Part shown: positions 14,728-34,404 of the stretch, piece by piece
Layout of the letters: every line of letters starts with the position of its first letter
Numbering within the stretch: the stretch's first letter is position 1
Assembly: GCF_020510705.1 (NCBI RefSeq)
Contig: NZ_CP075184.1
Span: forward strand, 248,001 to 312,000
Reading direction: 5' to 3'
Length of the DNA: 64,000 nt
From: Acidovorax radicis
GTDB taxonomy: Bacteria > Pseudomonadota > Gammaproteobacteria > Burkholderiales > Burkholderiaceae_C
The notes under the pieces: model-generated
Databases searched by the model: none
Told to the model about the DNA's origin: nothing
Seen by the model: only the letters and a program-made list of their open reading frames with translations
Program-made: the position numbers and the translations under genes

Positions 14728-14770
14728 GGGGGTTCGCTTTCTGCGGAATGGGTGGGGTTGTGCGGGGTGG

Positions 14771-18026: not shown

Positions 18027-19214
18027 CTACAGCACCACCGGGATCTCTGTGGCTGGCGGTGTGTTGCGGCTGCGGCCACAGCGCACCAAGCCATCGATCA
18101 TCACCATGCCGATGCCCGGGATGTCGCCGAGCTGCACACTTTCGAGCAGCGTGGCGCCGGCGGTGTGCTGGGCGCGGTCCATGAACACAAAGTCGGCGGC
18201 GCGGCCCACTTCGATGAGCCCGCAGTTCAGGTTGCGGATGCGCGCGGTGTTGCCTGTGGCAAAGCAGAACACCAGCTCGGCGGGGATGTCGGCAAAGCTC
18301 GATATCAGCGCAATCATGCGCAGCATGCCCAGCGGCTGCACGCCCGAGCCGGCCGGGCCGTCGGTGCCCAGGATCACGCGGTGCGGGCACTTGAGCTCGA
18401 TGGCGGCGCGCGCGGCCTGGATGGCGATCTTCTCGTTGCCGTTGTGTACCAGCTCGATGGCGCGGGACGACTTCTCGCACAGCTCGCACACATGCTTCCA
18501 GGGCAACGAGGTGTGGCCGCCGTTGATGTGGCCGATCACGTCGGCATCGGCCTCGAGCACCACGTCCTTGTCGATCAGGCCTGAGCCCGGGATGGACGGG
18601 CCGCCCGTGTGGATGGTGCTCTGGATGCCATGCTTGCGCGCCCAGGCCACCATTTGCTGGGCCTCGTAGCCTGCCTTGACGGAACCCAGGCCGACTTCGC
18701 CCAGCAGCGTGACACCCGCATCGGCCAGGTCCTTGAAGTCCTGCTCGGTCATGCCCTTTTCGATCACGGGGGCGCCCGCAATCACCTTCACGCCGCCGGG
18801 GCGAAAGTTGTCGAACGAGCGCTGCGCGGTGATGGCCAGAGCCTTCAGGCCCACGATGTCCTTGGGGCGGCCGGGCAGGTGGACTTCGCCGGCCGAGACC
18901 ATGGTGGTCACGCCACCGTTCATGGTCGAGTCGATCCAGCCGATCTGGTTCTGGCGCGGTGTCCAGTCGCCAAAAACCGGGTGCACGTGGCTGTCGATGA
19001 GGCCGGGTGCCACGCAGGTCTGGCGCGCATCGATCACGGTGTTGGCGTGTTCGGTGTCGCAATCCTTGTAGCGGCCCACCGCCGCTATGAGGCCGTCGTT
19101 CACCACGATGGTATCGGCTTCAAGAATCGGGTGATCGAGGTCACCGGACAATAAAAGGCCGATGTTCTGGATGACGACCTTGCCCGACTTGCCGCCTGCT
19201 GCTGCTTCTGCCAT
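18027..19214 (-). CDS. Enamidase-like amidohydrolase
   Basis: The 396-residue protein belongs to the metal-dependent amidohydrolases and closely resembles enamidase, which opens 1,4,5,6-tetrahydro-6-oxonicotinate to 2-formylglutarate and ammonia in Eubacterium barkeri. Shared blocks from memory of that family: the metal site HVHPVFGDWTPRQ, GGVTTMVSAGEVHLPGRPKD, GVKVIAGAPVIEKGMTE, IHTGGPSIPGS, IGHINGGHTS, ILGTDGPAGSG and the ending SRNTPPATE. Metal ligands appear intact. The ATG at 19214 precedes MAEAAAGGKSGK. It is last in a minus-strand run after fpr and tetR, divergent from the 6-hydroxynicotinate-reductase-like gene, as expected if it acts on that enzyme's product. The exact substrate is inferred from homology and neighbours. 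Confidence 0.82.
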   Translation of the reverse strand: MAEAAAGGKSGKVVIQNIGLLLSGDLDHPILEADTIVVNDGLIAAVGRYKDCDTEHANTVIDARQTCVAPGLIDSHVHPVFGDWTPRQNQIGWIDSTMNGGVTTMVSAGEVHLPGRPKDIVGLKALAITAQRSFDNFRPGGVKVIAGAPVIEKGMTEQDFKDLADAGVTLLGEVGLGSVKAGYEAQQMVAWARKHGIQSTIHTGGPSIPGSGLIDKDVVLEADADVIGHINGGHTSLPWKHVCELCEKSSRAIELVHNGNEKIAIQAARAAIELKCPHRVILGTDGPAGSGVQPLGMLRMIALISSFADIPAELVFCFATGNTARIRNLNCGLIEVGRAADFVFMDRAQHTAGATLLESVQLGDIPGIGMVMIDGLVRCGRSRNTPPATEIPVVL

Positions 19215-19278
19215 GGTTTCTCCTCGTGGGTGGGGTGACTGGCAGTGCCCTGGCCGGGCCACTACCGAAAACGGGGGA

Positions 19279-19992
19279 TCAGTTCGCCTTGCGCCGTGGC
19301 GGCGAGCGTTCGGGGGCGACCGTGCGCAGCACGCTGTCGATGACAAACAGCTCCCAGTTCGCCATCGCCTCGGGTGCCTCCAGGTCTTCGCCCAGAAACG
19401 CCGAGAGCGTGTGCCGGTTGGACATGTAGAAATACCCCGTGGCGGCAATCAGCAGGTATACGTCACGGGCCGCGATGTCCTGGCGAAACACCCCTTGTGC
19501 CTGGCCGCTGTCCAGTACCCGGCGAATCACCTCGATGGCCGGCGACGAGTATTCGCGGGCGCGCATCGACTTGGCGATGTGTTTGCCCTTGTGCAGGTTT
19601 TCGGTGTTGAGCAGGGTGACGAAGTCGGGGTGTTTGCGGTAGTAACCCACCACAAAACGAATGACGGCCTGCAGCGCTTCGAGGGGGTTGCCGGTGTCCA
19701 GGTCCAGGCGCGACTCGGCATCGTTCATGCGGCGGTAGGCTTCTTCAAGCACCTCGATGAACAGGCCTTCCTTGCTACCGAAGTAGTAGTAGATCATCCG
19801 GTCGTACGACTTGGCGGCCTTGGAGATCTTCTCCACGCTGCCGCCTTCGTAGCCATACCGCGCGAACACCTTGGTGGCGGCCTTCAGGATATTGTCGCGC
19901 GTGGTCTGCGCCGCCTGCTCGCGCACCCCCGTTTTGCGAGCCGATGCGGAGGGGGCGGCCGTTGTCCGGGTCCTGGTGGGTGTGGCAGCCAT
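19279..19992 (-). CDS. TetR-family regulator of the N-heterocycle cluster
   Basis: A 237-residue TetR repressor. After a basic Thr/Ala/Arg-rich start, the HTH (about 30-75) reads TRDNILKAATKVFARYGYEG and MIYYYFGSKEGLF. The ligand domain (YYRKHPDFVTLLNTENLHKG) is of the RutR/NicS-like class, known for sensing pyrimidines or pyridine acids; that comparison is from memory. It lies between fpr and the enamidase-like gene. A 21-base palindrome in the divergent promoter (21119-21139) is its likely operator. Regulation of both arms by the substrate or 6-hydroxynicotinate is inferred. Confidence 0.85.
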   Translation of the reverse strand: MAATPTRTRTTAAPSASARKTGVREQAAQTTRDNILKAATKVFARYGYEGGSVEKISKAAKSYDRMIYYYFGSKEGLFIEVLEEAYRRMNDAESRLDLDTGNPLEALQAVIRFVVGYYRKHPDFVTLLNTENLHKGKHIAKSMRAREYSSPAIEVIRRVLDSGQAQGVFRQDIAARDVYLLIAATGYFYMSNRHTLSAFLGEDLEAPEAMANWELFVIDSVLRTVAPERSPPRRKAN

Positions 19993-20043
19993 GGCGGGTC
20001 CTGGTGGATGGTGCGGGCCCTCAGGCGTGGGGCCCGCCGGGGT

Positions 20044-20820
20044 TCACTGCTCCGCGAACGCGCGTTCGATCACGAAGTCACCGGGTTTGGTGGTGTTGCC
20101 TTCGTTGAAGCCGCGCTCTTCCATCATGTGCTTGAGGTCGCGCAGCATTTCCGGGCTGCCGCAGATCATCACGCGGTCTTCCGTGGGGTTCAGTGCGGGC
20201 AGGCCCAGATCGCGCGCCAGCTGGCCGTTTTCGATCACGGTGGTGACGCGGCCCTGGTGCTTGAACTCCTCACGTGTCACGGTGGGGTAGTACTTGAGCT
20301 GCTTGCTCACCATCTCGCCCAGAAACTCGTGTTTGGGCAGCTCTTGCGTGATGTAGTCGTAGTAGGCGAGTTCCTTCACTTCGCGCACACCGTGCACCAG
20401 GATCACTTCCTCGAATTTTTCATAGGTTTCGGGGTCGCGGATCAGGCTCAGAAACGGCGCCACACCGGTGCCCGTGGAGAGCATGTACAGGCGCTTGGCG
20501 GGCAGCAGGTAGTCGATGAGCAGCGTGCCGGTGGGCTTTTTGCCCACCACGATGGTGTCACCCACCTTGATGTGCTGCAGGCGTGACGTCAGCGGGCCGT
20601 CGGGCACCTTGATGGAGAGGAACTCCAGGTGCTCTTCATAGTTGGGGCTGACGATGCTGTAGGCACGCAGCAGGGGTTTGCCCGTTTCGCCGCGCAGGCC
20701 GATCATCGTGAAATGGCCATTGGAAAAGCGCAGGGCCGTGTCGCGTGTGGTCGTGAAGGAGAAAAGGCGATCTGTCCAGTGGTGGACAGTCAGGACGCGT
20801 TCATCAAGAAAGGCGCTCAT
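20044..20820 (-). CDS. fpr: Ferredoxin-NADP reductase
   Basis: A 258-residue FAD enzyme that exchanges electrons between NADPH and ferredoxin or flavodoxin. The FAD motif is RAYSIVSPN (near 55), the NADP pocket STGTGVAPFLSLIRDP (near 115), and the C-terminus ends VIERAFAEQ, the short bacterial subclass pattern. Its place as the first gene of the run divergent from the 6-hydroxynicotinate-reductase-like gene suggests it supplies low-potential electrons to that reductase through ferredoxin. It could also be a general housekeeping copy; family members are common. Confidence 0.9.
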   Translation of the reverse strand: MSAFLDERVLTVHHWTDRLFSFTTTRDTALRFSNGHFTMIGLRGETGKPLLRAYSIVSPNYEEHLEFLSIKVPDGPLTSRLQHIKVGDTIVVGKKPTGTLLIDYLLPAKRLYMLSTGTGVAPFLSLIRDPETYEKFEEVILVHGVREVKELAYYDYITQELPKHEFLGEMVSKQLKYYPTVTREEFKHQGRVTTVIENGQLARDLGLPALNPTEDRVMICGSPEMLRDLKHMMEERGFNEGNTTKPGDFVIERAFAEQ

Positions 20821-21118: not shown

Positions 21119-21139
21119 CTACATTGGCATCAAATGTAG
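21119..21139. promoter_or_regulatory. Candidate TetR operator, CTACATT-N7-AATGTAG
   Basis: Perfect 7-base inverted arms at 21119-21125 and 21133-21139 form a 21-base palindrome, the size TetR dimers prefer. A further CTACA half-site lies at 21168-21172, facing TGTAG at 21135. The location, about 90 bases before the reductase-like gene and in the shared promoter region, fits the TetR protein at 19279. Confidence 0.6.
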
Positions 21140-21172: not shown

Positions 21173-21227
21173 CAAAATGCCATGACCGTACAAGCGTTTC
21201 AAGAGCCGCAAAAAGCAGGCCGCCACC

Positions 21228-22895
21228 ATGACTGAACACACCAAAACAGATGGACTTCCGGGCATGGATGCCCCCGGGTTGCCTCAGGTGCTGGAGCGCG
21301 CTCTGTCTCGCAACGAGCGCATGCACACCAGCAAGGTGGAGTGCAACGCCTGCCCGGTTCTGTGCCAGATATCGGAAGGCCGGGTCGGCGCGTGCGACCG
21401 GTATGCCAACCAAGGCGGTGTGCTGGTGCGGCTCGACCCTGTCGTGTTTCTGCGCAGAACGCTGGAGGCGGCAGAGACCACGCTGGTGCCGTTCGCCCTG
21501 GGTGCGGTGCAGGCTGCTTCAGGGGGCGAAGGCGGCGGCACGGTGGAAGGGGGGGGCGATGCCGCGTTGCCCGCTGGCCCTGCCGCCATTGCGCAGCCCT
21601 GGTCGGGTGACCTGTTGCTGGCCGATCAGGTGTTTGTGACCGGGGTAGGTTCTTCCACCACCTACCCTGACTACAAGCCTGCACCGTTCATCGTGGGCTC
21701 GCAGGTGCAGGGTGTGGACATGGTGACCGTGGTGACCGAGGGCATCTTTAGCTACTGCAGCTTCAAGGTGAAGATCGATACCGACCGGTTCCTCGGGGCC
21801 GAGCAGGCCAATGTGCGCTGCAAGGGCGAGGTGGTGGGCCATGTGACCACCGCTGAATATGGCTCGCAGATGTTGTCGCTGGGCGGCGTGCACCATCTCA
21901 CGGGCGGCACCAAAAAGGAAGGCCGCATCACCGCCGAGATGATGCAGTTGCTGGGTAACAAGCAGTCGGTGGAGTTGGCCATCGACGGCGGCTCGCAGTT
22001 GGTCATTCAGGCGGGCCGGGCTCCTGTTGTCAATGGGGTGGCCGAGCAGCGCATGCGCGTGGGTTGCGGCTCGGCTGCCATCGGCATTTTTGCGCGGCAG
22101 TTCCATGGCCACGCCGACGAGGTGGTGGTGGTGGACGACCACATCACCGGCGTGCTGACCGAACACCAGGCGGGCCGTTGCCTGGGCATGGTGCCTTCGG
22201 GCATACAGATGCGTGGGCGCAAGTCCACGCCGGGGCGGTATTTTCAGGTGGCCAACCCGGGCACGGGCTGGGGCGGCACCGACATTGCAGACCCGCTGGC
22301 CATCATCGATGGCTGGGACGCCGCCGTGGCCTGGCCCGGCCTGCGTTTGCTCATGACATCCACCACCGGCGAGCACGCCAGCTGGTACGTGCTGGACGAC
22401 AACCTCACGCCTGTTGAAACCGACATGCCACTGGAAGTGCGGCGCATCGTGGAGCGCATTGGTGAAAACTGCGAACCATCGCTGGCATCGGTGCTTTTTC
22501 TGGGTGGGGCCGGTGGCAGCCTGCGGGCGGGGGTGACCGAAAACCCGGTGCTGCTCACGCGCTCCATCAAGAACGCACTGGTCAACGTGACCTGTGGTGG
22601 TGCCCCGGCTTACGTCTGGCCCGGTGGCGGCATCACGGTGATGGCCGATGTGCTGCGCATGCCTGACAGCAGTTTTGGCACCGTGCCCACCCCTGCCATC
22701 GTGGCGCCGATTGAGTTCAGCATGCGGCGGGCAGACTATGAGGCGCTGGGCGGGCACGTCCATCAGATCCGGGGGCTGCGCGAGGTGCTTGAACGTGGTG
22801 CATGGCACAGCGACGGTGCGCCGCAGGCGCGTGTCTGGCAGGCACTGCCGTCGGGCAATCCCTGGCCATTGGGCCAACCACCGATGTTGGGTTGA
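21228..22895 (+). CDS. 6-hydroxynicotinate reductase-like protein
   Basis: The known enzyme, from Eubacterium barkeri, reduces 6-hydroxynicotinate to 1,4,5,6-tetrahydro-6-oxonicotinate with ferredoxin and contains iron-sulfur clusters and a covalently bound flavin. The 555-residue protein has an N-terminal cluster motif CNACPVLC with a fourth Cys in GACDRY (Cys39, 42, 46, 56). A Gly/Ala-rich linker follows (about 90-120), then a large conserved domain (GSSTTYPDYKPAPF at 141-154, GIFSYCSFKVKIDTDRF, GGTKKEGRITAEMM, TPGRYFQVANPGTGWGGT). My assignment rests on family recognition and on the enamidase, Fpr and NicA/NicB-type neighbours. The ATG at 21228 lacks a strong ribosome site. It leads the plus-strand run. 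Confidence 0.75.
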   Translation: MTEHTKTDGLPGMDAPGLPQVLERALSRNERMHTSKVECNACPVLCQISEGRVGACDRYANQGGVLVRLDPVVFLRRTLEAAETTLVPFALGAVQAASGGEGGGTVEGGGDAALPAGPAAIAQPWSGDLLLADQVFVTGVGSSTTYPDYKPAPFIVGSQVQGVDMVTVVTEGIFSYCSFKVKIDTDRFLGAEQANVRCKGEVVGHVTTAEYGSQMLSLGGVHHLTGGTKKEGRITAEMMQLLGNKQSVELAIDGGSQLVIQAGRAPVVNGVAEQRMRVGCGSAAIGIFARQFHGHADEVVVVDDHITGVLTEHQAGRCLGMVPSGIQMRGRKSTPGRYFQVANPGTGWGGTDIADPLAIIDGWDAAVAWPGLRLLMTSTTGEHASWYVLDDNLTPVETDMPLEVRRIVERIGENCEPSLASVLFLGGAGGSLRAGVTENPVLLTRSIKNALVNVTCGGAPAYVWPGGGITVMADVLRMPDSSFGTVPTPAIVAPIEFSMRRADYEALGGHVHQIRGLREVLERGAWHSDGAPQARVWQALPSGNPWPLGQPPMLG

Positions 22896-22909
22896 GCCAG
22901 GGCCTTCGT

Positions 22910-23836
22910 ATGCATGCAACCCGTCACACGCTGCCCGGCGGCCGCTGGCATTTTCAGCATGGCCCCATCGATCTCATCCTTCAGGCCGAAGGTGAGCCGC
23001 TGGTGGTGGCGGCTTGTCACGAACAGGCGTGGCTGCGTTTCTCAGCCCTGTTGCAACAGTTGGTAGACGAGCTGCCGGCCCTGCGCGCACCAGTGCGTGG
23101 CCCTTGTGGTCTGCGCGGCGTGGTGGCGCGCCGCATGTGGGCGGCCTGCGCGCCTTATCGCGCTGGATTCATCACGCCCATGGCGGCCGTGGCCGGGGCG
23201 GTGGCGCAAGAGATACTGGGCTGCTATGCGGGCGCGGGCATTGACCGCGCCTGGGTCAACAATGGCGGGGATATTGCGCTGCATCTGGCGCCCGGGCAGT
23301 CGGCGGCGGTGGGTGTGTATTGCGACCTGTCTGCCCTCGACGCCACGCAGCTGCGCGACGGCCTCTTGCTGGACGGCCAGATTCACATCACCAGCGCCAT
23401 GCCGGTGCGCGGGGTGGCCACCAGTGGCTGGCGAGGGCGCAGCCAGTCACTGGGCATTGCCGACAGCGTGACGGTGCTGGCGCGCACGGCGGCCGAGGCC
23501 GATGCAGCGGCCACCATCGTGGCCAATGCCGTGGATGTGGCCGACCCTCGCATTCAACGCCTGCCCGCACGGCAAGTGCGGGATGGCAGCGACCTGGGGG
23601 ATATCCCCGTCACGGTGGATGTCCCGCTGCTGCACCATGCACAGGTGCGCCGGGCGTTGCAGCAAGGGTTGCAAAAAGCGCAAGAATTGCAGTCCCGGGG
23701 TTTGTTGTGGTGTGCGCTGCTCGCCTGCCAGGGGCAGCTGGTGGCGACAACAGCGAATGAGAATGTTGCCACGCAGGTGATAGCCGGGTGGCCCGGTTCC
23801 ATCATCGGTACCGAAGTTGGTTCAGTATTTGCTTAA
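22910..23836 (+). CDS. UPF0280 family protein (ApbE superfamily)
   Basis: A 308-residue member of UPF0280 (COG2122), placed in the ApbE superfamily, whose characterised members attach FMN covalently to proteins. Visible blocks are TPMAAVAGAVAQEIL near 87, WVNNGGDIALHL (the Asn-Asn-Gly-Gly-Asp motif shared with ApbE), and SLGIADSVTVLARTAAEADAAAT, split by a loop, which matches the ApbE-like late core. It starts 14 bases after the 6-hydroxynicotinate-reductase-like gene, whose characterised relative carries covalent flavin. A role as its flavin-attaching factor is a specific inference. The ATG at 22910 is chosen by spacing after the previous stop. Confidence 0.78.
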   Translation: MHATRHTLPGGRWHFQHGPIDLILQAEGEPLVVAACHEQAWLRFSALLQQLVDELPALRAPVRGPCGLRGVVARRMWAACAPYRAGFITPMAAVAGAVAQEILGCYAGAGIDRAWVNNGGDIALHLAPGQSAAVGVYCDLSALDATQLRDGLLLDGQIHITSAMPVRGVATSGWRGRSQSLGIADSVTVLARTAAEADAAATIVANAVDVADPRIQRLPARQVRDGSDLGDIPVTVDVPLLHHAQVRRALQQGLQKAQELQSRGLLWCALLACQGQLVATTANENVATQVIAGWPGSIIGTEVGSVFA

Positions 23837-23857
23837 CGAATTGCACAGGTTGCCACC

Positions 23858-24499
23858 ATGATCCAGATACGACGCGTTTTTACCCATGTGGAAGAAATCA
23901 GGCACGAGTTCGGGCCCGTGGCGGATGTGCCTTTGCTGCGTGGCGCCATCGGCGCGGTGCTGACCAATCCCTATGCCGGGCGCTATGAGCCCGACATCCT
24001 TCCCATGATGGACGCTTTGCAGCCCGTGGGGCTGGACATGGCGCGGCGCTTGCTGAAAACCATGGCCGTGCCTGCCGAGCGCATCGAGACATACGGCAAA
24101 GGCGCGATTATTGGCGCTGCGGGTGAGCTGGAGCATGGGGCCCTGTGGCATGTGCCCGGGGGGTATGCCATGCGTGAACTGCTGGGCTGGAAGGGCGACC
24201 GCAACGCCTACGCCAAAGGTGAGGCCGAGAAGAAGACCGGGCAACCGGCCAATGCCTTGTCTATCGTGCCATCGACCAAGAAGGTGGGCGCGCCCGGTGC
24301 GGCGCTGGATGTGCCGCTCACCCACATCAACGCGAGCTACGTGCGCAGCCACTTTGATGCCATCGAGGTCCGGGTGCCCGGTGCGCCCTTGTCCGACGAG
24401 ATTGTTTTTATCCTCGCGATGTCCACTGGCGCACGCATCCACGCCCGTGTGGGTGGGCTTAAGGCCGCAGACATCAGCCAGTGGGATGGCTTGCGCTGA
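23858..24499 (+). CDS. DUF1185 (amino acid synthesis family) protein, paralog 1
   Basis: A 213-residue protein of the DUF1185 family, labelled amino acid synthesis without a proven reaction. Its blocks NPYAGRYEPD, YGKGAIIGAAGELEHGA, VPSTKKVGAPGAALDVPLTH and YVRSHFDAIEVRVPGAP recur in the next gene, so the two are tandem paralogs. It is 21 bases after the UPF0280 gene in the same run. Conservation of Tyr/Lys/Glu/His in the shared blocks suggests an enzyme. No cofactor site is recognisable. In this context it might act on a ring or an opened-ring intermediate. Confidence 0.8.
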   Translation: MIQIRRVFTHVEEIRHEFGPVADVPLLRGAIGAVLTNPYAGRYEPDILPMMDALQPVGLDMARRLLKTMAVPAERIETYGKGAIIGAAGELEHGALWHVPGGYAMRELLGWKGDRNAYAKGEAEKKTGQPANALSIVPSTKKVGAPGAALDVPLTHINASYVRSHFDAIEVRVPGAPLSDEIVFILAMSTGARIHARVGGLKAADISQWDGLR

Positions 24500-24540
24500 G
24501 CGTCGCCCACAACCCCCATACAAAAGCCAAGGAGCCACAC

Positions 24541-25125
24541 ATGCCAGCCAAGATCCGGAAAATCATCGTTCAGACCGACGAAGTCCGCGTGGAAATGGGA
24601 CGTGACATACAGCCGCCTGCGCGCAAGGCGCTTGCCATGGCCGTGATTGAAAACCCGTGTGCGGGCCGTTATGTCGAGAACCTCGATGAACTGGTGGCCA
24701 TCGGTGAAGAGCTGGGGGCGCTGCTGGGCGCCCGTTGTGTCGAGGCCCTGGGCATCGAGCCGGGCCAGGCGCAAAGCTACGGCAAGGCCGCTATCGTGGG
24801 CGAGGCCGGCGAGCTTGAACATGCTGCGGCGCTGCTGCACCCCAAGCTGGGCGCGCCGCTGCGTGTGGCGGTCGAAAAAGGGGCGGCGCTCGTGCCCTCC
24901 AGCAAAAAGATCGGCGGCCTGGGCACCTCCATCGACGTGCCTTTGGGCCACAAGGATGCCGCTTACGTGCGCAGCCACTTTGATGCCATGGAGGCACGCG
25001 TGGCCGATGCGCCCCGGGCCAATGAAATCGTGGTCGCCATCGTCGTGACCGACAGCGGACGGCCTTTGGCTCGCGTCGGGGGATTGAAGGCCTCTGAAAT
25101 CCAGGGCGCGGACGGGCTGCGCTGA
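24541..25125 (+). CDS. DUF1185 (amino acid synthesis family) protein, paralog 2
   Basis: A 194-residue paralog of the preceding gene. It shares NPCAGRYVENL, SYGKAAIVGEAGELEHAA, VPSSKKIGGLGTSIDVPLGH and YVRSHFDAMEARV at matching positions, but lacks about 20 residues of the N-terminal half. AAGGAG precedes the ATG at 24541. Two diverged copies side by side suggest a heteromeric complex or two similar steps. The gap of 41 bases after paralog 1 keeps it in the run. Function unknown. Confidence 0.8.
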   Translation: MPAKIRKIIVQTDEVRVEMGRDIQPPARKALAMAVIENPCAGRYVENLDELVAIGEELGALLGARCVEALGIEPGQAQSYGKAAIVGEAGELEHAAALLHPKLGAPLRVAVEKGAALVPSSKKIGGLGTSIDVPLGHKDAAYVRSHFDAMEARVADAPRANEIVVAIVVTDSGRPLARVGGLKASEIQGADGLR

Positions 25126-25215
25126 GCCCTTCGGCCCGCGCCAGCGCGTTGCACCGCACTACCATCACCCACCCTCAACGATCTCCCTGCCCACCCACTT
25201 TTCAGGAGTTTCCCC

Positions 25216-26421
25216 ATGACGATGCGACGAAACCTCATGCGCGCCACAGCGGCTGCCGCGCTGGCCCTCACGCTGGCCCCTGTGTATGCGCAGGGTGTCA
25301 TCAAAATTGGCGAGATCAACAGCTACAAGGCGCAGCCCGCCTTCCTGGAGCCCTACAAGAAGGGCATGGAGATGGCCGTTGAAGAGATCAATGCCAAAGG
25401 CGGCGTCAATGGCAAGAAGCTTGAGCTCATCAGCCGTGATGACAACGCCAACCCGGGCGATGCCGTGCGCGTGGCCGAGGAGCTGATTTCGCGAGAGAAG
25501 GTGGATGTGTTGGCGGGGGCTTTCTTGTCCAACACCGGGTTGGCGCTGGCCGATTTCGCCAAACAAAAGAAGTTCTTTTACCTGGCCGCCGAGCCGCTGA
25601 CCGACAAGATTGTGTGGAGCAGCGGCAACCGCTACACCTACCGCCTGCGGCCGTCGACCTACATGCAGGTGGCAATGCTCGTGCCCGAGGCCGTCAAGCT
25701 CAAAAAAAAGCGCTGGGCGGTGGTGTACCCCAACTATGAATACGGCCAGTCGTCGGTCGCCACGTTCAAGCAGCTGCTCAAGGCGGCGCAACCCGATGTG
25801 GAATTTGTGGGCGAGCAGGCCCCGCCGCTGGGCAAGGTGGATGCCGGCAGCGTGGTGCAGGCCCTGGCAGATTCCAAGCCCGACGCGATTTTTAACGTGT
25901 TGTTTGGCGCTGACCTGTCCAAGTTCGTGCGTGAGGGCAATACCCGGGGCCTGTTCAAGGGTCGCGAAGTGGTCAGCGTGCTCACGGGCGAGCCCGAATA
26001 CCTCGATCCACTCAAGGACGAAGCGCCCACTGGCTGGGTGGTCACCGGCTACCCTTGGTACGGTGTGAAGACGCCCGAGCACAAGGCCTTTCTGGACGCA
26101 TACCAGGCCAAGTTCAAAGACTATCCGCGCCTGGGTTCGGTGGTGGGCTACACGGCCATCTACTCGATTGCAGAAGGGGCCAAAAAGGCCGGCAGCACCG
26201 ACACCGAAAAGCTCATTGCCGCCTTCAAGGGGTTGGAGCTGATGAGTCCGTTTGGCAAGTTTCACTACCGCCCGCAGGACAACCAGTCCACCATGGGCGC
26301 CTACGTGGGCAAGACGAAAAACGACGGCGGCAAGGGTGTCATGGTGGACTACGTTTACCTTGATGGCAGCAAGTTCCAGCCGACCGACGAAGAAGTCAAA
26401 AAACTCCGTCCCGCCGACTGA
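25216..26421 (+). CDS. ABC transporter substrate-binding protein, Liv type
   Basis: A 401-residue periplasmic receptor of the branched-chain-amino-acid type. A signal peptide (about 1-25, ending VYA-QG) is followed by IKIGEINSYKAQPAFLEPYKKG, LISREKVDVLAGAFLSNTG and YEYGQSSVATFKQLL, which match the type I binding fold. Such receptors in catabolic clusters often bind aromatic or heterocyclic acids rather than amino acids. AGGAG precedes the ATG at 25216. The permease and two ATPase genes follow on the same strand, so import of the cluster's substrate, perhaps nicotinate, is inferred. Confidence 0.9.
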   Translation: MTMRRNLMRATAAAALALTLAPVYAQGVIKIGEINSYKAQPAFLEPYKKGMEMAVEEINAKGGVNGKKLELISRDDNANPGDAVRVAEELISREKVDVLAGAFLSNTGLALADFAKQKKFFYLAAEPLTDKIVWSSGNRYTYRLRPSTYMQVAMLVPEAVKLKKKRWAVVYPNYEYGQSSVATFKQLLKAAQPDVEFVGEQAPPLGKVDAGSVVQALADSKPDAIFNVLFGADLSKFVREGNTRGLFKGREVVSVLTGEPEYLDPLKDEAPTGWVVTGYPWYGVKTPEHKAFLDAYQAKFKDYPRLGSVVGYTAIYSIAEGAKKAGSTDTEKLIAAFKGLELMSPFGKFHYRPQDNQSTMGAYVGKTKNDGGKGVMVDYVYLDGSKFQPTDEEVKKLRPAD

Positions 26422-26576
26422 ACGGTCTAAGCGGTCTAAGCGGCCTGTGCGCTTTTGCACTCAACCACCCCGGCGCCGAGCTGGGTCCGGTGGTGCTTTG
26501 CGCAGGATTCGACCATGTGGTGCCGCAATTCGTCGCAGGCACAGCGGGCCACGCCCCCCCCAATTGAGGAATCTGA

Positions 26577-28472
26577 ATGAGCTTCTCAGGCTTTGTTGTC
26601 CAGTTGTTGAATGGTCTGGCCGGTGCCTCGTCGCTGTTCCTGGTGGCTGCGGGCCTGTCGCTGATTTTTGGCGTGACGCGCATCGTCAATTTCGCGCATG
26701 GCTCGTTCTTCATGGTGGGCATTTACATGGCCTACACCCTCGTCGAGCGCCTGGGTGGCACCTTGGGCTTTTGGCCGGCGCTGCTGCTGGCTGCGGTGGC
26801 TGTCGGGGTGCTCGGTGCGCTCATCGAGGTGGTACTGCTGCGCCGTATCTACAAGGCCCCCGAGCTGTTTCAGCTGCTCGCCACCTTTGCGCTGGTGCTG
26901 GTCATCAAGGACGCCGTCCTGTGGCTGTGGGGCCCCGACGAATTGTTGGGCCCGCGTGCGCCCGGCCTGGGGGGGGCGGTAGAAATCCTCGGGCGCCAGT
27001 TCCCGTCCTATGACCTTTTCCTGATTGTGGTGGGCCCCGCCGTGCTGGCGCTGATCTGGTTGCTGCTGACACGCACGCGTTTTGGCACGCTGGTGCGCGC
27101 CGCCACCCAAGACCGCGAAATGGTGAGCGCGCTGGGCGTCAACCAGGCATGGCTGTTCACCGCAGTGTTTGCCCTGGGCGCCTTGCTGGCGGGCCTGGGT
27201 GGCGCACTGCAACTGCCGCGCGAGCCCGCCACGCTGGAGATGGACCTCAACACCATCGGCGCCGCGTTTGTGGTGGTGGTGGTGGGCGGCATGGGATCGC
27301 TGCCCGGCGCCTATGTGGCTGCCTTGCTCATCGCACAGATCAAGGCGGTGTGTATCTGGCTGGGCGTGGTGGATATTTTTGGCATCAGTGTGTCGTTTTC
27401 CAAGCTCACGCTGATGGTGGATTTTCTGGTGATGGCTGCCGTGCTGGTGTGGCGCCCCTGGGGCTTGTTCGGGCGACCCCAGGCCCCCAGCCGTTATGTG
27501 GGCATGCCTGAAGCACCGCTGCGGCGCTCGGGCCCGGTTTACCTTGCCGTGGCTGCGGTCTTGGTGTTGGTGCTGGCGGCACTGCCGTTTGCCACCGCCA
27601 ATTCGCCCTACACGCTGGTGCTGATGATCGACCTGCTGATAGCCGCGCTGTTTGCCGCCAGCCTGCACTTCATCATGGGGCCCGCAGGCATGCACTCGTT
27701 TGGCCACGCCGCCTACTTTGGCCTGGGGGCCTACGGCGCGGCGCTGCTGGTGCGCCAGCTGCAGCTGCCCATGGAGGTCGCGTTGTTCGCGGCGCCCCTG
27801 GTGGCGGCGGTGGGTGCGTTGGTGTATGGGTGGTTTTGTGTACGCCTGTCGGGTGTCTATCTGGCCATGCTCACGCTCGCTTTTGCCCAGATCACCTGGG
27901 CCATCACCTACCAGTGGGATGCGTTCACAGGGGGCAGCAACGGCCTGACCGGCGTGTGGCCGGCCGAATGGCTGAGCGACAAGCGCACCTACTACTGGCT
28001 CACGCTGGTGCTGGTGGGCGCTGGGGTGTGGTGGATGCGGCGCGTGTTGTATTCGCCCTTTGGCTACGCCCTGCGGGCGGGGCGCGACTCGGTGCTGCGT
28101 GCCGACGCGATCGGTATCGACGTCAAGCGCATGCAGTGGGCGGCGTTTGTGATCTCGGGCACCGTGGCGGGCCTGGCGGGGGCATTGTATGCGTTCTCCA
28201 AGGGCAGCATTTCGCCCGAGAGCCTGTCCGTCGGCAAGTCGGTGGATGGCCTGGTGATGGTGCTGCTCGGTGGCATCCAGACGCTGGCGGGCCCGGTGGT
28301 GGGGGCGGTGACGTTCACCTGGCTGCACGACACTGTGGCGCGCAACACCGACTACTGGCGCGCCATGCTCGGCGGCATCATCTTGCTGCTGGTGTTGCTG
28401 TTCCCGCAGGGCATCGCGGGCGGCATCCGACAGCTCTTTGACAACCTGCGCTCATCCAAGGAGGCACCATGA
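26577..28472 (+). CDS. Fused Liv-type ABC permease (LivH-LivM)
   Basis: A single 631-residue protein carries both permease subunits that are usually separate. Residues about 1-300 match LivH (IFGVTRIVNFAHGSFFMVG; VVVGGMGSLPGAYVAALL). After a short cytoplasmic joint (RPQAPSRYVGMPEAPLRR) the rest matches LivM (MHSFGHAAYFGLGAYGAALL; LAMLTLAFAQITWAI; VMVLLGGIQTLAGPVVGA). Each half keeps the EAA-like contact loop for the ATPases. The frame is continuous with no sign of error. GAGGAA precedes the ATG at 26577, and the stop overlaps the next start (ATGA), so translation is coupled to livG. Confidence 0.92.
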   Translation: MSFSGFVVQLLNGLAGASSLFLVAAGLSLIFGVTRIVNFAHGSFFMVGIYMAYTLVERLGGTLGFWPALLLAAVAVGVLGALIEVVLLRRIYKAPELFQLLATFALVLVIKDAVLWLWGPDELLGPRAPGLGGAVEILGRQFPSYDLFLIVVGPAVLALIWLLLTRTRFGTLVRAATQDREMVSALGVNQAWLFTAVFALGALLAGLGGALQLPREPATLEMDLNTIGAAFVVVVVGGMGSLPGAYVAALLIAQIKAVCIWLGVVDIFGISVSFSKLTLMVDFLVMAAVLVWRPWGLFGRPQAPSRYVGMPEAPLRRSGPVYLAVAAVLVLVLAALPFATANSPYTLVLMIDLLIAALFAASLHFIMGPAGMHSFGHAAYFGLGAYGAALLVRQLQLPMEVALFAAPLVAAVGALVYGWFCVRLSGVYLAMLTLAFAQITWAITYQWDAFTGGSNGLTGVWPAEWLSDKRTYYWLTLVLVGAGVWWMRRVLYSPFGYALRAGRDSVLRADAIGIDVKRMQWAAFVISGTVAGLAGALYAFSKGSISPESLSVGKSVDGLVMVLLGGIQTLAGPVVGAVTFTWLHDTVARNTDYWRAMLGGIILLLVLLFPQGIAGGIRQLFDNLRSSKEAP

Positions 28473-29251
28473 GTCTGCTCAAAGTTTCTGGCCTGGGCAA
28501 GGCGTTCGGGGGTGTCAAGGCGGTGGACGGCATCCACTTCGAGCTGGCCGCTGGCGAGCTGCTGGCGCTGATCGGGCCCAACGGTGCGGGCAAGTCCACG
28601 ACGTTCAACATGGTCAACGGCCAGCTGGCGGCCGATGTCGGGTCGATCACGCTCGACGGGCAGGAGCTTGTAGGCCGCAAGCCCCGCGATATCTGGCGCA
28701 TGGGGGTGGGCCGCACCTTTCAGATCGCCGAAACCTTTGCATCGCTGACGGTGGTCGAAAACGTGCAGATGGCGCTGTTGTCGCACGACCGACTTTTGTT
28801 CTCGTTATGGCGGCCGGCCAGCGACCACCAACGCGACGAAGCCCTGGCGCTGCTCGACCAGGTGGGCATGAAGGCCCAGGCCGACCGCCCCTGCAGCGTG
28901 CTCGCGTATGGCGACGTCAAGCGCGTGGAGCTGGCCATTGCCATGGCCAATGCACCCAAATTGCTGCTCATGGACGAGCCCACAGCCGGCATGGCGCCCA
29001 AAGAGCGCAATGACCTCATGGCGCTGACCAAGCAACTGGTGGTGGATCGCAACATGGCGGTGCTGTTCACCGAGCACAGCATGGATGTGGTGTTTGCCTA
29101 TGCCGACCGCATGATCGTGCTGGCGCGGGGGCGGCTCATTGCCGAGGGCAAGCCGCTGGAGTTGCGCGACCACCCCAAGGTGCAGGAGGTGTACTTCGGC
29201 ACCGGCAAGACGTTTGAGAAGAAAGCCGCAACCGCTGCGGAATCGGCATGA
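28469..29251 (+). CDS. ABC transporter ATPase, LivG type
   Basis: A 260-residue ATP-binding subunit. Walker A GPNGAGKST is near 36, signature-region LAYGDVKRVELAIAMA near 147, and Walker B LLLMDEPTAGM near 170, with the H-loop in LFTEHSMDVVF. The signature is degenerate (LAYGD rather than LSGGQ), as is usual for LivG. AAGGAGG precedes the ATG, which overlaps the permease stop, and its own stop overlaps livF. It energises uptake with the fused permease. Confidence 0.93.
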   Translation: MSLLKVSGLGKAFGGVKAVDGIHFELAAGELLALIGPNGAGKSTTFNMVNGQLAADVGSITLDGQELVGRKPRDIWRMGVGRTFQIAETFASLTVVENVQMALLSHDRLLFSLWRPASDHQRDEALALLDQVGMKAQADRPCSVLAYGDVKRVELAIAMANAPKLLLMDEPTAGMAPKERNDLMALTKQLVVDRNMAVLFTEHSMDVVFAYADRMIVLARGRLIAEGKPLELRDHPKVQEVYFGTGKTFEKKAATAAESA

Positions 29252-29997
29252 CCATGACAACAAGCGAAACCAAAGAAGTGCTGCTGCAGGCCAAGGGGCT
29301 GCAGGCCTGGTACGGTGCGGCGCAAATCCTGTACGACGTGGATCTCGACGTGCGCCGTGGCGAGGTGGTGGCGCTGATGGGGCGCAATGGTGCGGGCAAG
29401 TCCACCACACTCAAGACGCTGATGGGCATGCTGGCCAAGCGCAAGGGCCAGATCCAGTTCATGGGCAAGGACATCTCCAAAAGCGACCCCCATGACGCCG
29501 CCCGCCTGGGCCTGGGATTCGTGCCCGAAGACCGCCGCGTTTTCACCGACCTCACGGTGATGGAGAACCTTGAAGTAGGCCGCCAGCCGGCCCGCACCTG
29601 GCCCGACGGCACGGCCGCCCCGGTGTGGACGCCCGAACGCCTGTTCAAGCTCTTCCCCAACCTGGGCGAAATGCCCCAACGCCCCGGTGGCCGAATGAGT
29701 GGCGGCGAGCAGCAGATGCTCACCGTGGCCCGCACGCTCATGGGCAACCCGTATCTGGTGCTGCTCGATGAGCCGTCGGAGGGTGTGGCGCCCGTGATCG
29801 TGGAACAGATGGCGCACATGATCCTGGAGCTCAAGGAGCAAGGCGTGAGCATCCTGCTGTCCGAGCAGAACATGCACTTTGCCGAACTGGTGTCCGACCG
29901 CGCCTATGTGCTGGAAAAGGGCCAGATCCGCTACCACGCCACCATGGCCGATCTGGCGGCCAATGAGGAGGTGCGCCGGGCCTACCTGAGCGTGTAA
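29248..29997 (+). CDS. ABC transporter ATPase, LivF type
   Basis: A 249-residue ATP-binding subunit, partner of the preceding ATPase. Walker A GRNGAGKST near 46, signature MSGGEQQMLTVARTL near 150 and Walker B LVLLDEPSEGVAP near 170 are intact. The insert ARTWPDGTAAPVWTPERLF (about 112-130) is a loop longer than in most LivF. The start at 29248 overlaps the livG stop; a second ATG at 29254 is possible. The nicA-like gene begins 88 bases later, so the hydroxylase may be in the same transcript. Confidence 0.93.
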   Translation: MTMTTSETKEVLLQAKGLQAWYGAAQILYDVDLDVRRGEVVALMGRNGAGKSTTLKTLMGMLAKRKGQIQFMGKDISKSDPHDAARLGLGFVPEDRRVFTDLTVMENLEVGRQPARTWPDGTAAPVWTPERLFKLFPNLGEMPQRPGGRMSGGEQQMLTVARTLMGNPYLVLLDEPSEGVAPVIVEQMAHMILELKEQGVSILLSEQNMHFAELVSDRAYVLEKGQIRYHATMADLAANEEVRRAYLSV

Positions 29998-30085
29998 GCG
30001 TTCAAGCCGCCGATCCGGCCCGCTGCCTGCCGCTTTTTTCGAGCCCATCCCTGCTCCTGTGGCCACCGATTTCGGAGTGTTCAAC

Positions 30086-30622
30086 ATGCAAGCTGTCTTG
30101 CCGCGCAACGGCGCAGCCCACCGCCCGGGCCTAGTGGTCAACGGCCAGGCATGCGCCTTGCCGGCCCACGGCGCTGCACCGGCCACGCTGCTGCACGTGT
30201 TGCGCAACGACCTGTGCCTCAACGGCCCCAAATTCGGTTGCGGTCTGGGCCAGTGTGGCGCGTGTACCGTGCTGGTCGATGGGGTGGCCGCCCGGGCTTG
30301 CGTGATTCCGGCGGACGGCGTGGCCGGGCGTGACATCACCACGCTGGAGGGTTTGCCTGCGCGACGCGGCATGGCGGCGGGTGCCGGGGCCGCGTTGCAC
30401 CCGGTGCAGCAGGCATTTGTGGACGCCCAGGCCGCGCAATGCGGCTATTGCCTGAACGGTATGGTGATGATGACCGTGGCCTTGCTGGAACGAACCCCCG
30501 ACCCTGACGAGGCCACGATCCGGCGCGAGCTCTCTGGCAACCTGTGCCGCTGCGGCACCCACGTGGAAATCATGCGCGCTGTGTTGCGCGCGGCGGTGTT
30601 GATGCGCGAGGCGCAGCCATGA
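30086..30622 (+). CDS. Molybdenum hydroxylase 2Fe-2S subunit, NicA-like
   Basis: The small iron-sulfur subunit of a xanthine-dehydrogenase-family hydroxylase, equivalent to NicA of the aerobic nicotinate pathway of Pseudomonas putida. The 178 residues carry the plant-type cluster (KFGCGLGQCGACTVL plus a later Cys in ARACVIPAD) and the second cluster (QCGYCLNGM and GNLCRCGTH). It passes electrons from the Mo centre to the haems of the next protein. The ATG at 30086 has GGAG ten bases ahead; a GTG at 30059 is an upstream alternative. Its stop overlaps the next start (ATGA). Confidence 0.88.
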   Translation: MQAVLPRNGAAHRPGLVVNGQACALPAHGAAPATLLHVLRNDLCLNGPKFGCGLGQCGACTVLVDGVAARACVIPADGVAGRDITTLEGLPARRGMAAGAGAALHPVQQAFVDAQAAQCGYCLNGMVMMTVALLERTPDPDEATIRRELSGNLCRCGTHVEIMRAVLRAAVLMREAQP

Positions 30623-33600
30623 CCCGTGTGGACCCCGGGCGGCCATTGCGCGCCAGCATGCCGCACACGCGTGCGGATTTTCATGCGGCGCAGAGCGTCT
30701 TGCTGGTGGTGCGCAACCCGCCGCCCGCGCCCAACCCGGTCAAGGGCCAGCCTGTGCTGGTGGCTGGCAATCCTGCTGAAGGGCTGGAGATTTTGTTGGC
30801 GGTGTGGGATGACGGCAGCGTCACGGCCCTCAACGGCCACGTGGATCTGGGCACCGGCATCCGCACCGCCCTGGCGCAGATCGTGGCCGAAGAGCTGGAT
30901 GTGCCGTTGGCGCAGGTGCACATGGTGTTGGGCGATACCGCCAGCGCACCCAACCAGGGCGCCACCATTGCGAGTGCGTCTCTGCAGATCCATGCCAGGC
31001 CGCTGCGCACGGCGGCGGCGCAGGCACGCCAATGGCTGCAGGCGCAGGCCGCACAGCAACTGGGCATGGCACCCGATGCCCTGCAGCTGCAAGGCGGTGT
31101 GGTGCGGGCCATTACCCCCGCAGGTCATCCGGACAAGCCCGGCCACAGCCTGCCCTATGGCGCGCTGATCGAAGGCCGCCACGAGGTGCTGCAGCTCGAT
31201 GACAACACCCGCACCAAGCCGCCAGGCGACTACACCGTGGTGGGCACGTCGGTGCCGCGTGTGGACATTCCGGCCAAGGTGCGCGGCGATCTGATGTACG
31301 TGCACGACATGCGTGTGCCTGGCATGCTGCATGGCCGCGTGGTGCGCCCGCCTTACGCCGGGGCCGACCACGGCGACTTCATCGGCCACACGCTGGAGTC
31401 GGTGGACCAGGGCTCCATTGCACACATCCCGGGCATCCGCGCGGTGGTGGTCATCCGCGACTTTGTCGGCATCGTGGCCGAGCGTGAAGAGCAGGCCGAG
31501 CAGGCCCTGCAGGATCTGCATGTCGTGTGGAGGGACTGGCCCGGGTTTCCGCGCCAGGACAGCCCCGAGGCCATCGCCCAGGCCATCCGTGCCAACCCGT
31601 TCACACAACGGCGTCTGGTGGACGAGGGCGATGTCGATGCCGCCCTGGCACGTGCCGAGCACCCCATGCCGCGCACCTATGTGTGGCCTTACCAGATGCA
31701 CGCCTCCATCGGCCCTTCGTGCGCGGTGGCCGAGTGGCGGGGGGACGATGGTGCGGGCCAGCCGCGCATGACCGTGTGGGCCGGCACCCAGAACCCCCAT
31801 GTACTGCGTGCGGACCTGGCCCGCCTGATGGGCATGGCCGATGTGGACGTGGACCTGATCCGCATGGAGGCCGCTGGCTGCTACGGCCGCAATGCGGCCG
31901 ATGATGTGGCGGCCGACGCCGCGCTGCTCTCACGCGCCGTGGGTGCCCCTGTGCGTGTGCAGCTCACGCGTGAGCAAGAGCACCGGTGGGAGCCCAAGGG
32001 CGCTGCCCAGCTCATGCAGGTGCGCGGTGGGCTCAACGGCGATGGTTCCGTGGCGGCCTACGACTTCGAGACCTCCTACCCCTCCAACGGCGCCCCGCTG
32101 CTGGCGCTGCTGCTCACGCGCACCATCGAGCCCGTCGCCCAGGCCTACGAAATGGGCGACCGCACCGCGCGCCCGCCCTACGCCTATGACAACCTGCGCG
32201 TGGCCGTCAACGACATGGCGCCCATCGTGCGGTCGTCATGGCTGCGCGGTGTGTCGGCCTTGCCTAACTCGTTTGCGCACGAGTCGTATGTGGATGAGCT
32301 GGCCATTGCCGCTGGGGTTGATCCGGTGCAGTTTCGCCTGCAGTTGCTCGACGACCCGCGCGCCGCCGAACTGGTGCAGGCCACCGCCGACAAGGCCGGC
32401 TGGGTGCCCCACACGGCCCCCCGGCCGTGCAGCGGCAACGCACCGGACGGCGATTGGCTGCACGGACAGGGCTTTGCCTATGCCCGCTACATCCACAGCA
32501 AATGGCCGGGGTTTGGTGCCGCCTGGTCCGCCTGGGTGGCCGATGTGGACGTGAACAAGAAAACGGGCGAGGTGCATGTGCGCCGGGTGGTGGTGGGGCA
32601 CGATGCCGGTTTGCTGGTGAACCCCGCAGGGGTTGACCAGCAGGTGCATGGCAACGTGCTGCAAACCACCAGCCGCGCGCTCAAGGAGCAGGTGCGGTTC
32701 GAGCCGGTCAAGCAGTCCGTGGAAAGCCGCGAATGGGGCAGCTACCCCATCCTGAGTTTTCGGGAGGTGCCGGTCATCGAGGTCATGCACATGCCCCGGC
32801 CCGATGAGGCCCCGCTGGGCGCGGGGGAATCATCGTCGGTGCCCGGCACGGCGGCCATTGCCAACGCCATCTTCGACGCCACGGGCGTGCGGTTTCGCGC
32901 GCCGCCCTTCACCCCCGAGGTGGTGCGCGCGGGCTTGAGCCCACTCACGCAGGCAGGGGCGGCCGCCACCACGGGGCACCACGGCGGCACGGGCAACCAC
33001 GCGGGTAGCAATGCTGGCGGCACGCCTGTGGCACCGGCCGATGTGTTGCCTGCGCCTGCATTGCCAGCCCCCTCGCTGCCGGCCGATGCCCCCTGGCCCC
33101 TGCGCCGCGGCATCTGGGCGCGTGCTGCGGCGCTGCTCGCTGGCGTCTTTGCCATGGGGGCCTCGCTGCTGGGATGGCGCCCCTCCATTGCGCCCGTGGT
33201 GCAGACGGCAAGCGTGTCGGTGTACAACGCCGCCACCATTGAGCGCGGGCGCTTGCTGGCGGCGGCGGGCGACTGTGTGGTGTGCCACACCGCCCCGGGT
33301 GGCACGCCCAACACCGGTGGGCGCGGCATGGACACGCCCTTTGGCAAGGTCTACACCACCAACCTCACGCCCGATGCGGAGACCGGCATTGGCCAGTGGT
33401 CGTTCAGCGCCTTCCAGCGTGCCCTGCGCGAAGGCATCTCGCGCGATGGCAAGCACCTGTACCCCGCGTTCCCCTACACGTCGTTCGCCAAGATGAGCGA
33501 CGACGACCTGACCGCGCTGTATGCCTATCTCATGGCCCAGCCCGCCGTGCGCGCCGAGGTGCCCCCAACCAGGCTGGCTTTTCCATTCAGCGTGCGGCCC

Positions 33601-34404
33601 CTGATGGCTGGCTGGAACGCGCTGTTCCATGACGCCACCCCGTTCAAACCCGACCCCACCCGCCCCCCCGAATGGAACCGGGGCGCCTACCTGGTGCAGG
33701 GCGTGGGCCACTGCGGCGCCTGCCACACACCGCGCAATGCGCTGGGGGCTGAGTGGGGTGGTGCGGCCTTCCTGTCGGGCGCGATGGTGGATGGCTGGGA
33801 GGCGCCCGCGCTCACTGGCCTGGCGAAAACGCCGGTGCCCTGGACGGCCGATGCGCTGTACCGCTACCTGCGCGATGGCCACAGCCCGCAACACGGCAGT
33901 GCATCCGGCCCCATGGCGCCGGTGGTGCGCGAGCTGGCGCACCTGCCGGACGACGACATCCGCGCCATGGCCAGCTATCTTGCGTCGTTCACCGCCCATG
34001 AGCCTGCGGACGAGCCCCAGCAGCTGGCACAAGCCGCCGTGGCCCGTGCCGCCGCGCTGGCCCCACAGCCCGGCCAGGCCCAGCGCCTGTTCGATGGCGC
34101 CTGCGCTGCCTGCCACCACGACGGCGACGGCCCCACCTTGTTGGGCGTGAATGTGCCCTTGGCCCTCAACAGCAACCTGCACAGCGACCGGCCCGACAAC
34201 CTGCTGCAGGTCATCGTGAACGGCATCCGCGAGCCCGCCGGGCGGGACATAGGCTTCATGCCTGCGTTCGGCCACGCGCTCAGCGATGCGCAGATCACCG
34301 AGTTGGCGGGCTACATGCGCCAACGCTATGCACCGGGCCGGCCTGGGTGGAACGACCTGCCGGGCGCCCTGGCGCGGGTGCGCGCAGGGCCTGAGCATCG
34401 ATGA
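30619..34404 (+). CDS. Molybdopterin hydroxylase fused to three c-type cytochrome domains, NicB-like
   Basis: The 1261-residue large subunit resembles NicB, which with NicA converts nicotinate to 6-hydroxynicotinate; isoquinoline oxidoreductase IorB is a related alternative. The Mo part (about 1-790) has GHVDLGTGIRTALAQI, MEAAGCYGRNAADD and GAGES with the catalytic Glu at 737. A low-complexity Gly/His/Ala/Pro stretch and one membrane segment (about 831-853) follow. Then come three CxxCH haem sites at Cys886 (CVVCH), Cys1032 (CGACH) and Cys1162 (CAACH). Electrons thus leave by cytochrome c rather than NAD. The ATG at 30619 overlaps the NicA-like stop by four bases. No Moco-chaperone gene is adjacent. 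Substrate assignment rests on the cluster. Confidence 0.85.
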   Translation: MTRVDPGRPLRASMPHTRADFHAAQSVLLVVRNPPPAPNPVKGQPVLVAGNPAEGLEILLAVWDDGSVTALNGHVDLGTGIRTALAQIVAEELDVPLAQVHMVLGDTASAPNQGATIASASLQIHARPLRTAAAQARQWLQAQAAQQLGMAPDALQLQGGVVRAITPAGHPDKPGHSLPYGALIEGRHEVLQLDDNTRTKPPGDYTVVGTSVPRVDIPAKVRGDLMYVHDMRVPGMLHGRVVRPPYAGADHGDFIGHTLESVDQGSIAHIPGIRAVVVIRDFVGIVAEREEQAEQALQDLHVVWRDWPGFPRQDSPEAIAQAIRANPFTQRRLVDEGDVDAALARAEHPMPRTYVWPYQMHASIGPSCAVAEWRGDDGAGQPRMTVWAGTQNPHVLRADLARLMGMADVDVDLIRMEAAGCYGRNAADDVAADAALLSRAVGAPVRVQLTREQEHRWEPKGAAQLMQVRGGLNGDGSVAAYDFETSYPSNGAPLLALLLTRTIEPVAQAYEMGDRTARPPYAYDNLRVAVNDMAPIVRSSWLRGVSALPNSFAHESYVDELAIAAGVDPVQFRLQLLDDPRAAELVQATADKAGWVPHTAPRPCSGNAPDGDWLHGQGFAYARYIHSKWPGFGAAWSAWVADVDVNKKTGEVHVRRVVVGHDAGLLVNPAGVDQQVHGNVLQTTSRALKEQVRFEPVKQSVESREWGSYPILSFREVPVIEVMHMPRPDEAPLGAGESSSVPGTAAIANAIFDATGVRFRAPPFTPEVVRAGLSPLTQAGAAATTGHHGGTGNHAGSNAGGTPVAPADVLPAPALPAPSLPADAPWPLRRGIWARAAALLAGVFAMGASLLGWRPSIAPVVQTASVSVYNAATIERGRLLAAAGDCVVCHTAPGGTPNTGGRGMDTPFGKVYTTNLTPDAETGIGQWSFSAFQRALREGISRDGKHLYPAFPYTSFAKMSDDDLTALYAYLMAQPAVRAEVPPTRLAFPFSVRPLMAGWNALFHDATPFKPDPTRPPEWNRGAYLVQGVGHCGACHTPRNALGAEWGGAAFLSGAMVDGWEAPALTGLAKTPVPWTADALYRYLRDGHSPQHGSASGPMAPVVRELAHLPDDDIRAMASYLASFTAHEPADEPQQLAQAAVARAAALAPQPGQAQRLFDGACAACHHDGDGPTLLGVNVPLALNSNLHSDRPDNLLQVIVNGIREPAGRDIGFMPAFGHALSDAQITELAGYMRQRYAPGRPGWNDLPGALARVRAGPEHR

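Follow-up and report, generated by a model that had tools for sequence, protein, structure and literature searches.

A stretch of 64,000 nucleotides from Acidovorax radicis, corresponding to bases 248001–312000 of a genome assembled as one contig (4,995,154 bases) and referred to here as the window, contains a cluster of 13 genes across positions 18027–34404. We consider it probable that this cluster imports nicotinate and degrades it reductively, with a NicAB-like hydroxylase, a homolog of 6-hydroxynicotinate reductase (Hnr) and an enamidase as its enzymes, a UPF0280 protein as a maturase, and a TetR-family regulator acting at an operator. The UPF0280 protein is a partner of Hnr, and this pairing extends well outside the window. 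The genes lie in two divergent runs. The minus-strand run, from 20820 down to 18027, reads fpr-tetR-enamidase, and the plus-strand run (21228–34404) reads hnr-UPF0280-DUF1185-DUF1185-Liv importer-nicA-nicB. All of the genes named in the initial annotation were found at the coordinates it claimed. The GC content at third codon positions (GC3) was 0.73–0.85 across all 13 frames. The arrangement is not a product of chance, because a Comamonadaceae plasmid (locus L004) carries the identical 13 genes in the identical order.

The hnr gene (21228–22895, plus strand) encodes a form of the reductase that is free of a ferredoxin domain. Its product had no Pfam match at E 0.001, and the identification comes from homolog names and from the protein of the Eubacterium barkeri locus (L010), to which it is 40% identical by protein alignment and 37% by tblastn. 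This confirms the relationship to E. barkeri 6-hydroxynicotinate reductase that had been proposed. Several of the best 120 homologs listed carry the name 6-hydroxynicotinate reductase, the named ones belonging to Acidovorax, Curvibacter, Polaromonas, Variovorax, Ramlibacter and Hydrogenophaga. An alignment of 38 Hnr sequences had 98 invariant positions, including Cys39, Cys42, Cys46 and Cys56.

The enamidase-like amidohydrolase gene (ena, 18027–19214, minus strand) likewise resembles a characterised E. barkeri enzyme, as had been claimed. Aligned over 381 residues with 2VUN, the enamidase of E. barkeri, its product scored 369.5 bits, the HxH block and the later His/Asp blocks being aligned, and the next of the four sequences listed from the PDB after 2VUN scored only 26.3 bits. 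The ena of L010 was 47% identical (tblastn). A genome scan with the 2VUN sequence returned L010 (E. barkeri, 100%) and ten other loci, one of them weak at 25%. The substrate of 2VUN is reportedly tetrahydro-6-oxonicotinate (Alhapel et al. 2006), and by this homology ena would open 1,4,5,6-tetrahydro-6-oxonicotinate (THON). A TTG start at 19448 in the open reading frame list was rejected for ena as too far upstream.

At the other end of the cluster, nicA (30086–30622, plus strand) encodes a [2Fe-2S] subunit (Fer2_2, 94.6 bits, with matches to xanthine dehydrogenase small-subunit models), and nicB (30619–34404, plus strand) a molybdenum hydroxylase with MoCoBD_1/2 and cytochrome c domains, the latter forming a C-terminal three-haem part. 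CXXCH motifs are located at NicB residues 886, 1032 and 1162, GAGE at 734, and a hydrophobic stretch near 832–852. The closest PDB match of the haem part was chain A of 8gy3, an aldehyde dehydrogenase cytochrome c subunit. The domain layout, with its three haem c motifs, bears out the earlier description of a cytochrome-linked, NicA/NicB-like hydroxylase and makes the enzyme a candidate nicotinate hydroxylase. Pseudomonas putida NicAB shares this layout, with a small [2Fe-2S] subunit and a molybdenum subunit that carries three c-type haem motifs by fusion; here, the genes stand beside reductive, not oxidative, ring-opening genes. In comparison to xanthine dehydrogenase chains, the order of the NicB molybdenum domains is changed (59–132 aligned with ~1020–1093, and 283–494 with ~667–870).

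The UPF0280/COG2122 protein, a remote relative of ApbE, is encoded at 22910–23836 (plus strand; NF003322, 383.5 bits against a cut-off of 290). In a sample of 200 genomes from the host's family, hnr was present in 33, and in all 33 a UPF0280 gene lay directly downstream, with 8–104 bases between the matched ends. The match was above the model cut-off in 32 of these, and in the other (G288) it was a 27-position piece at a contig end. The 167 genomes that were without hnr yielded a single UPF0280 match, below cut-off at 20.8 bits (G364). With G364 taken as negative and relatedness uncorrected, the Fisher p for the association is 1.7e-38. Six further genomes, reached through L010, L012, L015, L016, L018 and L019, had one known hnr locus each (further hnr copies were not searched for), and their UPF0280 copy numbers of 1, 2, 1, 1, 1 and 2 equal one for that locus plus the number of DUF39 copies (0, 1, 0, 0, 0 and 1). 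The second UPF0280 copy was within 0.8 kb of DUF39 in G395, and not on the contig of DUF39 in G399. In a set of 59 genomes from the same phylum as G399, high-scoring UPF0280 genes had hnr upstream in 13 of 13 cases, and low-scoring ones were present in 41 genomes, 39 of which fall among the 41 with DUF39 (p 2e-10, the split between high and low scores having been chosen after the fact).

We take COG2122 to be the family of UPF0280, and the shared links to DUF39 and ApbE agree with this. In the available text of PMC5764234, COG2122 is needed together with DUF39 for homocysteine synthesis by a chemistry that is unsettled; a persulfide proposal is quoted there, as is the remark that the homology of COG2122 to ApbE stops short of the flavin-binding region. 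In the DUF39-NIL/ferredoxin-COG2122 system of that paper, too, a single client enzyme is served by a UPF0280/COG2122 protein (PMC5764234). The client itself differs, as DUF39 and Hnr were not significantly related in sequence: hhalign of Hnr against DUF39 (PF01837) gave 0.4% (111 and 31 sequences), and the pairwise score was reached by 594 of 1000 shuffles. Our search of the literature on UPF0280/COG2122 found no title concerning Hnr.

We propose that UPF0280 would mature Hnr, one partner per client, in a role most plausibly tied to a covalent flavin. Such a flavin is reportedly present on E. barkeri Hnr (Alhapel et al. 2006), and we know of no enzyme that attaches it. The profile of Hnr-type UPF0280 sequences matched ApbE at 94.8% (E 5e-8; 32 and 9 sequences), compared to 0.2% for each of three controls (DUF39, DUF1185 and Hnr). 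In ApbE, the Asp and Thr of AD..AT form the metal site and the H.IDPxTG segment is catalytic. The AD..AT motif and the GGD block are both kept in 32 of 32 UPF0280 sequences and TSGxxGRS in 31 of 32. Attachment of flavin to Hnr by UPF0280 is therefore a plausible hypothesis, based on the ApbE profile homology, the kept motifs and the flavin reported for E. barkeri Hnr. By sequence, the PDB relative of UPF0280 is 2O34, a hypothetical protein, at 28.4 bits. A protein with a UPF0280-like start was also observed at L065 (G391), its Pfam ApbE match (20.6 bits, E 5.1e-4) being below cut-off, as a further hint that the two families are linked.

The electron supply to Hnr probably differs between the window and E. 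barkeri. The N-terminus of the E. barkeri enzyme has two CxxCxxCxxxC (4Fe-4S ferredoxin) motifs, and we counted such motifs ahead of the four-cysteine site in 93 Hnr sequences, some of them protein entries without a named host. There were none in any of the 56 sequences on the window's side, which is alpha- and betaproteobacterial (the window protein itself, six plasmids, 19 loci from the class and family samples, and 30 of the 120 homologs), and one or two in all 37 on the anaerobic side (seven loci from the 2VUN genome scan and 30 proteins). Six of the 37 scored one motif, E. barkeri among them because its start was set too late there. Opposite hnr in the window is a gene for an Fpr-like ferredoxin/flavodoxin NADP reductase (20044–20820, minus strand), a relative and not a curated member of NF008178 (158.5 bits, cut-off 390). 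An fpr gene is in this position in 24 of 29 family loci. Since the window Hnr has no ferredoxin domain like that of the anaerobic enzyme, NADPH is its probable electron source, by way of Fpr or a soluble carrier. Fpr is the candidate donor, and a path from NADPH through Fpr to Hnr is a reasonable one given the missing ferredoxin motifs and the recurrent position of fpr.

Taken together, NicAB would hydroxylate nicotinate at C6 and deliver the electrons to the respiratory chain by way of its c-type haems, Hnr would reduce the resulting 6-hydroxynicotinate to THON, and the enamidase would open the reduced ring to yield 2-formylglutarate and ammonia. The initial annotation had joined a hydroxylase to reductive ring opening in this manner; the homologies it relied on hold, and we regard the catalytic route to 2-formylglutarate as likely. 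In the E. barkeri locus, ena and DUF1185 are followed by a gene of 614 residues, presumably 2-methyleneglutarate mutase judging from its length and its place. The only match to it in the A. radicis genome was 33% identical over 116 residues, with no full counterpart, and for this reason the anaerobic lower route is unlikely to operate here. The fate of 2-formylglutarate is probably glutarate, by analogy with the onward route of Azorhizobium, as given in the available text of PMC3511419.

A reductive route in a respiring bacterium had been thought little described. This view has to be abandoned for the route as such, as it was already reported for aerobic alphaproteobacteria (PMC3511419, main text). 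The route via THON was known first from E. barkeri and then from aerobic Azorhizobium, and for the aerobic route Kitts et al. 1989 and 1992 are cited in that paper, where a BLAST search with the E. barkeri genes (2012) found the cluster in Azorhizobium, Bradyrhizobium, Rhodopseudomonas and SG-6C. The Hnr homolog of SG-6C is 42% identical to that of E. barkeri, and the product formed by SG-6C from 6-chloronicotinate was identified as 6-hydroxynicotinate by high-performance liquid chromatography and mass spectrometry (HPLC/MS) (PMC3511419). The words "enamidase" and "cytochrome" each have 0 occurrences in its main text. Because PMC3511419 describes such clusters, at least in the text available, the aerobic reductive route is of a known kind. 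Those hosts are aerobic, as here, and alphaproteobacteria, unlike here. No betaproteobacterial case was found by title or abstract in our literature search, with most subscription papers beyond its reach. The E. barkeri locus shares with the window the adjacency of hnr to UPF0280 and of ena to DUF1185, and differs in the two 4Fe-4S motifs of its Hnr, in a molybdenum protein split into two frames, and in having one DUF1185 gene.

Control of the cluster may be exerted from the divergent promoter between the two runs, where we found a perfect palindrome, CTACATT-N7-AATGTAG, at 21119–21139. It is the sole match in the 64 kb, and none occurred in 100 shuffles. A looser form, TACA-N8..14-TGTA, occurs upstream of hnr in the window, in L004 and in nine loci of the family, making 11 of the 46 loci, whereas single-base shuffles averaged 1.0 and never exceeded 5; it was absent upstream of hnr in the remaining 35, many of them of the same family. 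The simplest reading is that the palindrome is a candidate TetR operator, from which the TetR-family regulator encoded at 19279–19992 (minus strand; TetR_C_29 150.2 bits, TetR_N 49.7 bits) would control both runs.

Gene-neighbourhood comparison, put forward in the initial annotation as a check, showed that the hnr set recurs in the family, with UPF0280 and fpr placed as described above and with hnr and its neighbours conserved across 24 genera of the family sample. In an evenly drawn sample at the class level, a long hnr match was found in 2 of 185 genomes. Plasmids yielded 26 records with hnr, 12 of them from Sulfitobacter and 4 from Rhizobium. The six plasmid loci that we opened (L004–L009) have in common hnr, UPF0280 and DUF1185, the last present once in L006 and L008 and otherwise twice. 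Two side observations concern Hnr itself. In genome G051 (L021/L028), the hnr match is broken by an in-frame TAG near the N-terminus. At L022–L027, the match is confined to the N-terminal Cys region of Hnr (~29–84) and covers a short part of frames of 367–776 residues, which suggests a shared metal-binding motif.

Several of our findings weigh against the proposed function of the cluster. The genes acting after 2-formylglutarate were not located, although no genome-wide search for glutarate genes was made. Five of the 29 family loci have no fpr beside hnr (L033, L036, L043, L044 and L057). The hnr-UPF0280-DUF1185 set also occurs with another type of molybdenum hydroxylase (L005, L006), and with HyuA/HyuB-type genes and no enamidase match within the fetched stretch (L006–L009). 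As for the maturase, UPF0280 scored 12.3 bits against Pfam ApbE PF02424, under the cut-off of 25.6, and the D[PA].TG motif of ApbE is absent from UPF0280 (0 of 32), with an alignment gap at H.IDPxTG. The missing DPxTG is in line with the remark on the flavin-binding region quoted in PMC5764234.

The last of these points also bears on what UPF0280 does. It is a real possibility, if one short of probable, that UPF0280 is no flavin transferase and serves both Hnr and DUF39 by sulfur or iron-sulfur chemistry, such as persulfide handling. This would fit the homocysteine requirement, the persulfide proposal and the flavin-region remark in the available text of PMC5764234. It would also fit both the absence of D[PA].TG and the DUF39-type UPF0280 paralogs, which matched ApbE at just 4.7% although GGD is kept in all 19 sequences and AD..AT in 18 of them. 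Against it are the ApbE profile match of the Hnr-type proteins with its three low controls, their complete conservation of AD..AT and the GGD block, and the covalent flavin reported for E. barkeri Hnr. The more specific idea that UPF0280 is a client-specific factor that fixes flavin on Hnr via a different catalytic residue, with its paralog doing likewise for DUF39, is one we hold to be rather doubtful; if true, it would explain together the source of the Hnr flavin and the homocysteine requirement of COG2122.

With respect to the substrate, the cluster might degrade some other N-heterocycle, such as a substituted pyridine carboxylate or a related lactam, with Hnr being a general 2-pyridone reductase module and the nicotinate names merely inherited. 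Indeed, Hnr homology alone cannot fix the substrate, because the hnr-UPF0280-DUF1185 set is combined with another type of hydroxylase, with HyuA/HyuB, and with regulators and transporters that vary. An enamidase is present in L005, but the hydroxylase there has a xanthine-dehydrogenase-type FAD subunit, and the HyuA/HyuB-type genes of L007 and L008 are annotated as acetophenone carboxylase subunits. Such a cluster has, however, been tied to 6-hydroxynicotinate in SG-6C by BLAST and metabolites, with no hnr mutant mentioned, as far as the available text of PMC3511419 goes. In the window, moreover, NicAB-like, Hnr and enamidase genes occur together, and the enamidase is close to that of E. barkeri, so that we view another substrate as unlikely. 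The HyuA/HyuB-type (hydantoinase/oxoprolinase) genes of L006–L009 may represent an alternative means of opening the reduced ring. The best-known setting of NicAB-type enzymes is the oxidative pathway in P. putida. That NicAB here supplies such a pathway encoded at another place in the genome, leaving the reductive genes as remnants or to serve another compound, is very improbable given the 13 open frames, their GC3 values and the conservation of hnr and its neighbours across genera, although no search for nicCDXFET was made in the rest of the genome.

The remaining plus-strand genes of the cluster encode the presumed importer and the two DUF1185 proteins. The Liv-type importer comprises a periplasmic substrate-binding protein (25216–26421; Peripla_BP_6 248.8 bits), a fused LivH-LivM permease with two BPD_transp_2 stretches (26577–28472), a LivG-like ATPase (28469–29251; ABC_tran and BCA_ABC_TP_C) and a LivF-like ATPase (29248–29997; ABC_tran, with UrtE and LivF models). 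The DUF1185/PF06684 proteins are encoded at 23858–24499 (222.5 bits, with an insert by alignment) and 24541–25125 (241.3 bits, and 290.7 bits to 2QTP). UPF0280 and DUF1185, to which the initial annotation had assigned no role, were the most constant companions of hnr, and both are present in the E. barkeri locus too. The Pfam name of DUF1185, "Amino acid synthesis", was based partly on nearby transporter genes of the branched-chain amino-acid type (PMC2954203, available text). This name may be misleading, as DUF1185 was mostly in catabolic clusters among the loci we opened. In hnr-free genomes (L101, L106, L110), DUF1185 was observed near zinc-type dehydrogenases and Tct receptors, a setting that recalls the hcd coumarin cluster.

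Elsewhere in the window, we noted an S-adenosylhomocysteine (SAH) riboswitch (RF01057) at 3500–3597 (plus strand; 47.5 bits, gathering score 37). Genes at 11645–15667 (minus strand) encode a long-chain fatty acid CoA ligase-like protein, an acyl-CoA dehydrogenase and a short-chain dehydrogenase, and do not form a clear glutaryl-CoA set. A transposase-like integrase-core (rve) protein with HTH_38 is encoded at 40546–41715 (plus strand), after a SEC-C-motif gene at 38238–40388.

Overall, the cluster adds betaproteobacterial members to a reductive route already known from aerobes. What is newer is the association of the reductase with a partner gene of its own, UPF0280, and the wider value lies in the pairing of this family with both Hnr and DUF39. 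With UPF0280 tightly paired with two clients, the chemistry of COG2122 and the flavin of Hnr become one testable question.

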